A stretch of 49,370 bases of DNA, taken from NCBI GenBank assembly GCA_025449555.1, contig JANWJD010000030.1:1-49370 (forward strand), given 5' to 3'. Origin of the DNA: Chloroflexota bacterium (GTDB lineage Bacteria > Chloroflexota > UBA5177). The translations under genes and the position numbers were made by a program. Shown one piece after another: positions 38,650-43,955 of the stretch. The notes below the pieces were generated by a model. The model was not told the origin of the DNA. It saw nothing but the letters and a program-made list of their open reading frames with translations, and made no database searches. The number at the start of each line of letters is the position of its first letter. Position 1 is the first letter of the stretch.

Positions 38650-39000
38650 CTACTTCTTGGTCGCTCGGGTCTTTGTACCAGTCGCTTTCGCCCGCGAAGG
38701 CTTCTTCGCCTCGGGCGCGACCTCCGGCGTCGCTTCCACGGCGATCGCCGCGTTGAACGCCTTCATCAATCGAGATTTCCGGCGAGAGGCGTTGTTCTTA
38801 TGAATGACACCCTTTTTTGCCGCTTTATCGAGAGCAGAAATCGCCGCGCGAAGATCGTCCTGTGCTTCGGCGGCATTTGTGTTGATCACCGCACGAGCCT
38901 TCTTGACGAAGGTTCTGGTCGACGATTTCACAGCCACGTTACGCGCGTGCCGCTTCTCGGCAATTTTCTCGCGCTTGATGGCCGATTTCGTATTGGCCAT
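38650..39000 (-). CDS. rpsT: Ribosomal protein bS20 with C-terminal Lys/Ala-rich extension
   Basis: MANTKSAIKREKIAEKRHARNVAVKSSTRTFVKKA...GVIHKNNASRRKSRLMKAFN. Confidence 0.97.
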   Translation of the reverse strand: MANTKSAIKREKIAEKRHARNVAVKSSTRTFVKKARAVINTNAAEAQDDLRAAISALDKAAKKGVIHKNNASRRKSRLMKAFNAAIAVEATPEVAPEAKKPSRAKATGTKTRATKK

Positions 39001-39831: not shown

Positions 39832-41166
39832 GTGGTAGCAGGCACGACGCCACTGGAATCGGGTGATCCGACACCTCGCGTCGGCGGGCCGACTGAAGAA
39901 GATCTCGCGAAATGCGTGCACTGCGGCCTCTGCCTGAATGCCTGCCCGACGTATCGTGCCACCGGTCTCGAAACGGAGTCGCCCCGCGGGCGCATCTATC
40001 TCATGCGGGCGCTACATGACGGACGCATTGATCTGGACGACAGCTTTCATACGCACATGGATCTCTGTCTGGTATGCCGTGCGTGCGAGACCGCGTGTCC
40101 GTCAGGAGTGCCGTTCGGACGCATGATGGAAGCGACGCGCGACCAGATGTGGAACGAGCCGGTGGGACCGCCCGCCCAACGCGTCGCCAATCGGCTCACC
40201 TTCGAGTTCGTGTTTCCACACAGGCGACTCTTTCAAAGACTGTTTGCCGCGATGCGTATCTACCAGCACTCCGGACTACGGAGCATCGTGCGCCGCTCGG
40301 GCCTGCTGCGGAAGATGCCGGGAGGGTGGGGCGAACGGGAAGCGCTCATGCCACTCCTGGATTCGGCTTCCTTTGTTGTCCAGGACGCAATACCTCCACG
40401 GCTGCCGGGCGTACCTCGGGTTGGATTTCTGGCGGGTTGTGTGATGAGTACCGCCTTTGGCGACGTACAGCGCGCTTCAGTTCGTGTCCTCGAACGTTTC
40501 GGTTGCCAGGTCGTGGTCCCACCGGGCCAGGGCTGCTGCGGTGCCCTGAATGTCCATGCGGGCGAGCGTGCCCGTGCCAAGATCATGGCGAAGGCGGTCG
40601 TCGAGTCCATGCTCGAAGCCGACCTGGACGTGATTGTGGTCAACTCCGCCGGCTGCGGGTCGACCATGAAAGAGTACTCGGAACTATTTGCCGATGAGCC
40701 CGACTACCTGCCGAGAGTGCGCCAGTTCGAGCGCCTGGTGCGCGACTTCAGCGAATTTCTGGCCGAGTTGCCATTTCCCAGGGTCTCCGGTCCCGGATCG
40801 AAGGAATCGGACGGCGTGATCGCGGTGTATCAGGACGCGTGCCACCTGCGCCACGCGCAACGCATCGCCGCGCAGCCCCGCGAATTGCTGAAACAGGTGG
40901 ATGGTCTACAAACGGTGGAGTTGGCGTATCCCGATCTCTGCTGCGGTAGTGCCGGGGTGTACAACTTGCAACATCCTGCGATGTCGCGCGAAATCCTCAA
41001 TGCCAAGCTGGACGACATTCGCGCGAGCGGTGCATCGTTGGTGGTCAGTGCCAATCCGGGATGCATCATGCAACTCCGCAAGGGAGCCGAGGAGGCCCAA
41101 CTTCCAATCCAGGTTCGACACATTGCGGAGGTACTCGACGAAGCGCTGAACGGTCGGGATGGGTAG
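39832..41166 (+). CDS. glcF: Glycolate oxidase iron-sulfur subunit GlcF
   Basis: CVHCGLCLNACPTYRATG and CLVCRACETACPSGVPFG ferredoxin motifs; two CCG domains; adjacent to glcD. Confidence 0.92.
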   Translation: MVAGTTPLESGDPTPRVGGPTEEDLAKCVHCGLCLNACPTYRATGLETESPRGRIYLMRALHDGRIDLDDSFHTHMDLCLVCRACETACPSGVPFGRMMEATRDQMWNEPVGPPAQRVANRLTFEFVFPHRRLFQRLFAAMRIYQHSGLRSIVRRSGLLRKMPGGWGEREALMPLLDSASFVVQDAIPPRLPGVPRVGFLAGCVMSTAFGDVQRASVRVLERFGCQVVVPPGQGCCGALNVHAGERARAKIMAKAVVESMLEADLDVIVVNSAGCGSTMKEYSELFADEPDYLPRVRQFERLVRDFSEFLAELPFPRVSGPGSKESDGVIAVYQDACHLRHAQRIAAQPRELLKQVDGLQTVELAYPDLCCGSAGVYNLQHPAMSREILNAKLDDIRASGASLVVSANPGCIMQLRKGAEEAQLPIQVRHIAEVLDEALNGRDG

Positions 41167-41169
41167 GGC

Positions 41170-42621
41170 ATGAGACGATTCGAACGGGACTCGACGCAGT
41201 TGGTGGCCGAACTTGTGGCGGTCGTGGGAGCAGAGCATTTGCTGCATAAGCCGGAGGATACGATCGTCTACGAGTCCGACGGCACGGCGGAACGGGGTAT
41301 TCCGACCGTCGTCGTGTTGCCTGATTCGGCAGAGCAGGTAGAGGCGGTCGTTCGAGTCGCACGGCGTCACGGATTGCCCATTGTTCCCAGAGGAGCCGGC
41401 ACCGGTTTGAGCGGTGGGGCCGTGCCGGATTCAGGTGGAGTCTTGATCGGCACCGCGCGGATGCGCCGCCTGCTCGAGCTCGACGTACGCAACCAATTCG
41501 CCATCGTGGAGCCGGGCATGGTCAATGCGGAGCTCTCGGCGCTGGTGGCCCGCCACAATCTGTTTTACGCGCCGGATCCATCAAGCCAGAAGGCGTGTAC
41601 GATTGGCGGTAACGTGGCCGAAAACTCAGGTGGCCCCCATTGCCTGATGTACGGCATGACCACGAACCACATTCTGGGCCTCGAAATCGTCACGGTGGAC
41701 GGCGAACGAATGTGGATCGGCGGGGCGAATCCGGATCCGGTCGGCTATGACCTGGTTGGCGCAATTGTTGGGTCGGAGGGAACGCTGGCGCTGGTTACCA
41801 AGATCATGGTTCGACTCCTGCCCAAACCGCCTGCGACCCGGACCATCCTGGCAATTTTTCCGACCATGGACGCCGCGTGCGACGCCGTGTCTGCCATCGT
41901 GAGCGCCGGCATCGTACCCGCCGCGATGGAAATGATGGACGCCGTGACCACGAGCGCGGTCGAAGCCGCCGTACACGCCGGTTACCCGCTCGATGCAGGA
42001 GGAATCCTGTTGGTGGAGCTGGATGGAACGGCGACGACGCTGGCGGCGCAGGCAGCGTCGATCGAGGCGGTGTGCAGAAACCACCAGGTGCGCGAGGTGC
42101 GAGTGGCGGATCGCCAGGAGGAGCGGGACCGGCTCTGGGCGGGCCGAAAAGGGGCTCTCGGGGCGTTGGGCAGACTGGCGCCGAACTATTTCATTCAGGA
42201 CGGCGTGGTGCCCCGCACGAAGCTACGGGAGGTTCTGCAACGCGTGCAAGAAATCGGCGAGAGGTATGGCTTGGTGGTCGCCAACGTGTTCCATGCGGGC
42301 GACGGGAACCTTCATCCCAACATCCTGTTCGATGCGCGAACTCCCGGAATCCGAGATTGGGTGAGACAGGCCGGGGCGGAAATCCTGCGTGTCTGTGTCG
42401 AGGCCGGTGGCAGCATCACCGGCGAACACGGCGTCGGAGTCGACAAACAAGACTATCTGGCCTGGATGTTCACCCCGGTCGAGATCGACGTGATGAGGGA
42501 ACTCAAGGCGGCGTTCGACCCACAGGGCATTCTTAACCCCGGCAAGATCTTTCCCGGCGCCAAGGGGTGCGGTGAGATACAAGGCGTGGATCGGCGACTC
42601 GCGCTCGCCGCCATGGTCTGA
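41170..42621 (+). CDS. glcD: Glycolate oxidase FAD-linked subunit GlcD
   Basis: PIVPRGAGTGLSGGAVPDSGGVLIG...DPSSQKACTIGGNVAENSGGPHCLMYG...GSITGEHGVGVDKQDYL. Confidence 0.94.
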   Translation: MRRFERDSTQLVAELVAVVGAEHLLHKPEDTIVYESDGTAERGIPTVVVLPDSAEQVEAVVRVARRHGLPIVPRGAGTGLSGGAVPDSGGVLIGTARMRRLLELDVRNQFAIVEPGMVNAELSALVARHNLFYAPDPSSQKACTIGGNVAENSGGPHCLMYGMTTNHILGLEIVTVDGERMWIGGANPDPVGYDLVGAIVGSEGTLALVTKIMVRLLPKPPATRTILAIFPTMDAACDAVSAIVSAGIVPAAMEMMDAVTTSAVEAAVHAGYPLDAGGILLVELDGTATTLAAQAASIEAVCRNHQVREVRVADRQEERDRLWAGRKGALGALGRLAPNYFIQDGVVPRTKLREVLQRVQEIGERYGLVVANVFHAGDGNLHPNILFDARTPGIRDWVRQAGAEILRVCVEAGGSITGEHGVGVDKQDYLAWMFTPVEIDVMRELKAAFDPQGILNPGKIFPGAKGCGEIQGVDRRLALAAMV

Positions 42622-42624
42622 AAT

Positions 42625-42698
42625 AAAAAAACCGGGCGGTGCGCGCCTCCCCAGGCTACACCACCCGTTGGCAATCCCCCACCTCCGCAGATTGCCAA
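42625..42698 (-). ncRNA. Candidate small RNA (about 75 nt) with two hairpins and intrinsic terminator
   Basis: Minus strand: TTGGCAATC...GATTGCCAA (perfect 9 bp), then CGGGTGGTG...CACCGCCCG followed by GTTTTTTTATTT. Confidence 0.6.
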
Positions 42699-42703
42699 GA
42701 CCT

Positions 42704-42731
42704 ACTATAAGGATCTCGCCGGAATACTCAA
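42704..42731 (-). promoter_or_regulatory. Promoter of candidate sRNA
   Basis: Minus strand TTGAGT (42731-42726), 16-nt spacer, TATAGT (42709-42704), placing +1 at the base of hairpin 1. Confidence 0.55.
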
Positions 42732-42956
42732 TGGCTGCGAGCCGAGATTCGGCCGGTTCGCAGATGTTATGTCGAGCGTGGCGGCCCATAGCGACGGTGG
42801 CATTGAGGTGACGATGTCGAAAGAATGTCAGTAGTCGAGGGATTTATCCACGACCTGTGGACGAGCCTCAGAGCTCATCCACAGAAGTGTCCACGAGATT
42901 ATGCAGATGTGACATGACCGGCGAGCCCGAGGTAGATTGTTTGCCGGCGAGTCGGC

Positions 42957-43955
42957 TCAGTCGTCCGACAACGACGCGGCAAATGACTCATCCGCGGAGT
43001 ATTCCATGCTGATCATCGGGTGCATGCCGGCGTGCACCACCAATTCGAACACATCGGGCCGCGCGTAATGCCCGGCTACGTCCAGTGACGACCGGGCCGC
43101 ACGCGCCTCCCTGGGATCGACCTGGGCGTACAGGATTCCCTCTTCGGCTTCGAGCGGACCCGCGATGAAGGTGCCATGGGGATTCACAATGGCACTGCGA
43201 CCAACGTTGATCCATTCATCCGCCTGCCCGTAGAACCGTTGCTTCATCGCCAGCGAGTCCGGACTATCCGACAACCTGAGTGCCATGCAACTGCTGATCA
43301 CGTGCACTCGTCCCTCGCGCGCGATGTGTTGAATGGTTGCCTGCCAGCCGTCGCCGCGATCCCAGGTGGAGGCGATATACAGTTGCACGCCCCAGGCATA
43401 CAGGGTGTACCGGGCGAGCGGCATGTAATTTTCCCAGCAGATCAAACCACTCAATCTGCCGTAGGGAGTATCGAACACCTGAAGTGTACTGCCGTCCCCC
43501 TGCGCCCAGATCAAGCGCTCACCGCCGGTGGGAACGAGCTTACGATGCTTGCCCATAATATTGCCCTGGTCATCGATGTACAGGAGCGTGTTGTACAGGC
43601 TGGTGCCGCTGGCTTCGGCGTTACATTCGTTCAGGCCCACCACCACAAAGGCGTTCGCCGCCTGTGCCGCCGCACAAAGATCGTCCGTCGATTGGCTAGG
43701 AATGGTGACCGAATTGGCGAGCAGGCGTCCGTACAGGTGATCGAGCGTATCACTATCTCCCGCCGGCACCGCCCACACCCAATCGGGATAGGTTGGAATG
43801 TACGCCTCGGGAAACACGATCACACGGGCTCCCCGAGATCCAGCGTCCTGAATGAGACGGCAAGCTTTGGCGACGGTCGCTTCGCGATTCAAGAACACCG
43901 GCGAGGCCTGTACAGCGGCAACCGTGAATGGTACATCCAGCGGGAGATTATCCAT
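42957..43955 (-). CDS. Nitrilase family carbon-nitrogen hydrolase
   Basis: FPEAYIPTYPDW, GKHRKLVPTGGE, GLICWENYMPLARY (Glu/Lys/Cys triad context); ATG 43955. Confidence 0.93.
   Translation of the reverse strand: MDNLPLDVPFTVAAVQASPVFLNREATVAKACRLIQDAGSRGARVIVFPEAYIPTYPDWVWAVPAGDSDTLDHLYGRLLANSVTIPSQSTDDLCAAAQAANAFVVVGLNECNAEASGTSLYNTLLYIDDQGNIMGKHRKLVPTGGERLIWAQGDGSTLQVFDTPYGRLSGLICWENYMPLARYTLYAWGVQLYIASTWDRGDGWQATIQHIAREGRVHVISSCMALRLSDSPDSLAMKQRFYGQADEWINVGRSAIVNPHGTFIAGPLEAEEGILYAQVDPREARAARSSLDVAGHYARPDVFELVVHAGMHPMISMEYSADESFAASLSDD

Follow-up and report, generated by a model that had tools for sequence, protein, structure and literature searches.

The csRNAs of streptococci are several paralogous small RNAs (sRNAs) with one common promoter and an unpaired stretch complementary to the Shine-Dalgarno (SD) sequence (PMC3091779). 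In Bacillus subtilis, the G-rich regions of RosA act as a sponge for the C-rich sRNAs RoxS and FsrA (PMC8216469), and RsaI of Staphylococcus aureus binds SD sequences via a C-rich region and was also proposed to be a sponge of sRNAs (PMC8216469, PMC9266662). CsrB, RsmY and RsmZ form a further group, which sequesters the protein CsrA.

The locus described here lies in a 49,370-nucleotide stretch of DNA (contig JANWJD010000030.1, hereafter the window) from a bacterium of the phylum Chloroflexota, the class of which (UBA4733/UBA5177) is represented by few metagenome-assembled genomes (MAGs) only, all uncultured (PMC10608941). Judged by sequence comparison, this locus is a genuine small-RNA gene. 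It belongs to a family, not described before, of at least 14 genes in six genomes of class UBA5177, counted as 11 genes with a G-rich hairpin (hairpin 1) and three sRNA genes found through their promoter or linker. The family is modular. Type A, to which the window RNA belongs, consists of hairpin 1 and a terminator hairpin, without a linker; type B contains hairpin 1, hairpin 2, a C/U-rich linker and a covarying 3' hairpin; type V has a different 5' part followed by the linker and the 3' hairpin, without the G-rich hairpin.

The family resembles the csRNAs of the CiaR regulon of Streptococcus, where several similar sRNAs per genome stand under the direct-repeat promoter of one regulator (PMC3091779), as one promoter layout is shared here by the 14 genes of six genomes, and types B and V likewise carry an unpaired SD-complementary region between stem-loops. 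Unlike the csRNAs, it belongs to another phylum and has a G-rich hairpin, the window RNA has no SD-complementary linker, and the csRNA repeat TTTAAG-N5-TTTAAG is absent from the aligned promoters, which have a GTGGA array and a TNGACATAA box. With RosA, it shares the presence of a G-rich RNA without a C-rich seed (type A) alongside sRNAs having one (types B and V); however, RosA is about 229 nt long with three G-rich regions, and nothing suggests that it shares a promoter with its partners. Type B is similar to RsaI, one RNA with both SD-binding and proposed sponge roles, although RsaI is CcpA-controlled and from another phylum. No homology to RosA or RsaI was found, since neither the window nor nine sibling loci matched any Rfam family at the gathering score, and a permissive scan returned chance-level matches only. 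No Chloroflexota sRNA family of this design came up in the searches of this analysis.

Results and Discussion

The small-RNA gene

On the minus strand, positions 42698-42625 hold a candidate RNA gene of about 74 nt, with its own -35 and -10 elements, two stacked hairpins and a U7 tract. The features of the locus are as follows:

42625-42698, minus strand: type-A small RNA, about 74 nt, predicted +1 at or near 42698 (fold z = -5.6; homologues in six genomes)
42726-42731, minus strand: -35 element TTGAGT (sequence, aligned promoters, promoter scan)
42704-42709, minus strand: -10 element TATAGT (TANNNT, 4-5 nt ahead of hairpin 1 in every copy)
42668-42698, minus strand: hairpin 1, 9-bp stem with G-rich loop UGCGGAGGUGGGG (11 copies; covarying stem)
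42633-42667, minus strand: hairpin 2, the terminator stem, with an inner GCCU/AGGC stem and a GGGG tetraloop (fold)
42625-42631, minus strand: U7 tract, intrinsic terminator (sequence)
42767-42775, minus strand: upstream box TCGACATAA (its CATAA begins 62 bp ahead of the -10)
42847-42894, minus strand: array GTGGA-N7-GTGGA-N26-GTGGA, DnaA-box-like (promoter alignment)
38650-39000, minus strand: rpsT, ribosomal protein S20 (Pfam PF01649; synteny)

The original prediction, made from this sequence without any comparison, had read a promoter, two hairpins and a terminator within about 110 nt, and most of it stands. TTGAGT (42731-42726) and TATAGT (42709-42704) are separated by a 16-nt spacer, with a 5-nt gap between the -10 and hairpin 1, and a promoter scan recovers the same pair (9/12 matches; two sites in the 401-base region vs 0.2 expected in shuffles). 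The perfect 9-bp hairpin, with the predicted +1 at its base, is formed by the arms TTGGCAATC (42698-42690) and GATTGCCAA (42676-42668) around the 13-nt loop TGCGGAGGTGGGG. The second hairpin (CGGGTGGTG...CACCGCCCG, 42667-42633) and the T7 behind it (42631-42625) are present as well, but GGGGAGG is not an open loop as had been supposed, since GCCU pairs with AGGC around a GGGG tetraloop. A simple terminator scan of the region left hairpin 2 unscored because its stem contains this inner hairpin and a bulge; despite the missing score, a stem of 10 bp with U7 behind it has the standard form of an intrinsic terminator. The predicted fold of the 74-nt RNA reaches -43.5 kcal/mol vs -27.0 ± 3.0 kcal/mol for dinucleotide shuffles (z = -5.6), and none of the 200 shuffles was as stable.

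Only 335 bp separate glcD (ending at 42621) from the CN-hydrolase gene (ending at 42957), and the sRNA gene with its upstream region fills most of this gap. Promoter and terminator do fit in the proposed 110 nt, but the whole feature reaches much further upstream, to 42894. The claim that the interval is free of open reading frames holds in that none is conserved among the copies, although chance frames do cross the site in this GC-rich DNA. With its own promoter and terminator, conserved structure and no conserved frame, the locus fits the general kind of intergenic trans-acting sRNAs. A peptide gene started by the GGAGG of the loop was considered and rejected: type B2 has lost the UUG that comes next (AUUACC), and the frame after the loop closes within about 5 codons in one of the type-A copies and after 17 in another.

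Distribution and conservation of the family

In class UBA5177, hairpin 1 is found in 11 intergenic genes distributed over six genomes. A DNA search of 61 related genomes gave nine copies, spread over four genomes of the same family with one to three in each. The covariance search suggested by the original prediction, run with a hairpin-1 model, gained two more: a fifth genome of the family contributed a diverged copy, and the order's only other genome a weak one (E = 0.05), the latter confirmed by its own promoter and 3' module. Convincing matches among 399 genomes of the phylum were confined to five genomes of the window's family. A scan for the hairpin core in the genome_contigs collection (approx. 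85,000 species genomes) returned seven true matches and one chance match in coding sequence; all seven are in three MAGs, including Chloroflexi bacterium UBA5177, which correspond to G001, G003 and G004. After reading of the sequences, the matches L010, L014, L016, L019, L028 (a weak one elsewhere in the phylum) and L036 were discarded as chance. The title of MAG Centralia_MAG_338 (L038, L039 and L041; JAJPIP010000057.1, JAJPIP010000094.1 and JAJPIP010000010.1) names Proteobacteria, which looks wrong, as it corresponds to G001 of the window's family. All genomes are MAGs of 82-97% completeness, in which missing types may be gaps, and the comparisons comprise 11 to 14 sequences only.

Across the 11 copies, 89% of the cells of the hairpin 1 stem are paired, and the covariation score of the structure was reached by one of 500 shuffles; one pair is CG in six copies and UA in five, a double change from C-G to U-A, while two basal pairs are unconserved in most type-B copies. 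The compensatory substitutions which the original prediction would have expected among relatives are thus found for hairpin 1. The loop core GAGGUGGGG is present in 11/11 copies, and GCCTGGGGAGGC of hairpin 2 is identical in the type-A copies of three genera. The 11 homologous copies, the stem compensation and the fixed distance from the -10 to the hairpin strongly support a small-RNA gene, as first proposed; that proposal did not include the existence of a modular family or the conserved promoter further up. A quadruplex of the form GG-N-GG-N-GG-N-GG was rejected: most loops match it, but the G002 and G005 loops do not.

Three sRNA genes with the shared promoter (G000:C284, G004:C291 and G005:C7) have no G-rich hairpin, and all of them carry the C/U-rich linker and the type-B 3' hairpin. 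Seven genes from five genera share one and the same 17-nt linker, CCTTCTCCTTTCCGTCC, which has no other exact occurrence in the seven genomes. Of the 132 cells of the 3' hairpin in types B and V, 130 are paired, and every pair shows compensatory changes; almost every pair differs between members, and arms swapped between members pair at 59%. Several type-B2 RNAs lack a U tract immediately after the 3' hairpin, and their 3' ends are uncertain.

Type A is syntenic in G000, G001 and G003 (three genera), with an N-carbamoyl/NAD-synthetase-like gene and an amidohydrolase on one side and rpsT on the other. In two other genera rpsT is the adjacent downstream neighbour on the same strand, which could suggest that the RNA acts in cis, as a leader or attenuator of rpsT, and not in trans. 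We regard this as highly improbable, since 3.6 kb with two genes of the opposite strand separate it from rpsT in the window, where the promoter, RNA and terminator are nevertheless intact, and sibling copies adjoin unrelated genes. The two genes are glcF-glcD (39832-42621), which came between the sRNA and rpsT by insertion or rearrangement.

The type B1 place is common to G001 and G003, and the type B2 place to G000, G001, G002 and G003, the V gene of G004 occupying the same place. As every type has a location of its own, preserved by synteny in two to five genera, the loci are old, separate genes and not recent copies. The several dispersed copies per genome might also be expected of a mobile or repeated DNA element that is not an RNA gene at all; with this synteny, with no match in plasmid or phage records, with stems that change by compensation and a -10 at fixed distance, such an element is barely conceivable. 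In three genomes (L046, L051 and L139), the type-B2 place lies immediately upstream of a PHP/CpsB-like gene (IDLHNHILPGLDDG), with a divergent gene of about 165 residues of unrecognised family on the other side.

The shared promoter

All 11 hairpin-1 copies are preceded by GTGGA-N7-GTGGA-N26-GTGGA, then TNGACATAA, then TANNNT, which stands 4-5 nt ahead of hairpin 1. The CATAA of the consensus starts 61-63 bp before the -10 in 17/17 promoters (those of the 11 hairpin-1 genes, the three other sRNA genes and three short-ORF loci), and the first GTGGA repeat falls for the most part 174-188 bp ahead of the -10, forming clusters spaced by about 12 bp. An exact search for the triple array in seven genomes found seven hairpin-1 genes, one further locus and no other match. 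Among 198 CATAA sites in 0.96 Mb (both strands), 16 had the array upstream, and 16/16 are family or regulon loci. Since the hairpin-1 copies were found by the hairpin alone, without the promoter, the promoter is independent evidence for those 11; the V and regulon loci were found via promoter or linker and lend these elements no independent support. Based on this comparison between genomes, by which gene, family, promoter, structures and modularity are established, we are highly confident that this is a genuine co-regulated sRNA family. The same promoter layout stands ahead of three short ORFs in G002:C55, G000:C84 and G001:C14. These ORFs, at L138, L137 and L107, have 126, 65 and about 41 residues, and the last one looks hydrophobic.

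Possible mechanism of action

The window RNA probably tunes translation by pairing with other RNAs. We infer that the type-A gene is transcribed, from a sigma-70-type promoter which the GTGGA array and the TNGACATAA box would govern, and that the siblings act against SD sequences: the conserved C/U-rich linker CCUUCUCCUUUCCGUCC of types B and V resembles the 3' end of 16S rRNA and would cover the SD sequences of mRNAs. It includes CTCCTTTC, the anti-SD end of 16S rRNA in G005, in 8/11 linkers, and type B1 linkers are without it. The predicted unpaired probability of the type V linker is 0.74-0.97, and in one type-B2 RNA the linker is predicted to be about half unpaired. Reverse-complement matches of the linker in G003 include two plausible ribosome-binding sites, L087 and L092, the latter before a ProC-like start; because SD-like sequence makes such matches expected, neither is claimed as a target, and no target mRNA was established.

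Type A, a G-rich hairpin without the linker, could then be an antagonist or sponge of its type B and V siblings. Since type A resembles RosA, type B RsaI and type V RoxS, our best guess is that the window RNA would be the partner or sponge of the C/U-rich siblings. Loop-linker duplexes of about -12 to -19 kcal/mol are predicted, but they are not more stable than those with shuffled linkers (0.25-0.92 of shuffles were at least as stable), and own pairs were no better than swapped ones, so that a sponge role is still something we infer. The G-rich loop may pair with C-rich RNA, as in the original prediction; predicted loop-linker pairing, intramolecular or intermolecular, did not rise above composition. 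For these reasons, we put forward the sponge mechanism tentatively; the entire statement, of a stand-alone untranslated type-A sRNA of a co-regulated family that would act as a sponge, we place a little short of an even chance.

The sRNAs that act at ribosome-binding sites usually have C-rich and not G-rich seeds. This weighs, together with the lack of any identified target site, against the G-rich hairpin being itself a direct mRNA-pairing seed by which type A would repress mRNAs with C-rich sites CCCCACCUC, the siblings not being involved. The near-invariant loop, conserved among paralogues up to order level, is what many targets would lead one to expect, and type B RNAs retain the G-rich hairpin beside the linker; still, we think this unlikely.

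GGA in a hairpin loop is the classic ligand of CsrA, and the extreme loop conservation would also fit protein binding, so the hairpin might be a decoy that titrates a CsrA-like or other RNA-binding protein, like CsrB, RsmY and RsmZ. Those RNAs, however, have many such loops, compared with one per RNA here, and a search for CsrA (PF02599) found none in seven of seven genomes of the class, three of them at least 92% complete, with positive controls detected. The earlier suggestion that a CsrA-type GGA-binding protein is sequestered is unsupported in this genome and in six others of the class, and a decoy seems quite improbable.

The loop sequence GGAGGUG could, finally, mimic an SD sequence and bind 16S rRNA, directly affecting ribosome recruitment, with 8 contiguous pairs to the 16S 3' end CACCUCC (-14.3 kcal/mol). 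As 19% of shuffled loops equal this value, it is not above composition, and the invariant GGGG after GGAGGUG is left unexplained; we consider such mimicry very improbable.

Possible control by DnaA

The DnaA box, which is TTATCCACA in E. coli and TTGTCCACA in actinobacteria, has GTGGA as its core (PMC4285127). The first GTGGA repeat tends to have A at the adjoining positions, as in the DnaA box, which is a partial agreement. DnaA-type proteins are present in 6/6 genomes searched: a classical DnaA of about 460 residues in four of the six, and a longer one with a CxxC-rich start in four genomes. This second DnaA-like protein (L157, L158, L159 and L160; G000:C162, G005:C28, G003:C241 and G001:C79) has a zinc-finger-like N-terminus and open frames of 553-614 residues, and the G001 copy contains DnaA_N, Bac_DnaA and DnaA_C (Pfam). 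Ahead of its gene, three genomes have a pair of TCCAC sites spaced by about 32 bp, and G005 has three such sites close together. Directly 3' of classical dnaA, GTGGA-N26-TCCAC-N10-GTTATG, thus both elements of the sRNA promoters, occurs in three genera; this flank (L153:4160-4250, L155:3030-3110 and L156:3630-3690) is possibly part of the origin, and GC skew near dnaA showed no origin and was uninformative. DnaA-type control of the sRNA promoters would be a testable lead, not proof. A replication-linked regulon, in which DnaA or the CxxC-rich second DnaA, bound to the GTGGA array and helped by a partner at TNGACATAA, would activate modular sRNAs for the global tuning of translation initiation, type A being the antagonist, seems to us rather doubtful.

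Conclusions

The family offers a sharply defined promoter, clear orthology across genera and parts that are shuffled among its members. The logic of a C-rich regulator and a G-rich sponge, known from Firmicutes, becomes testable here in what is likely a case of independent invention. Should DnaA or its paralogue read the GTGGA array, replication initiation would be tied to translation control via small RNAs.
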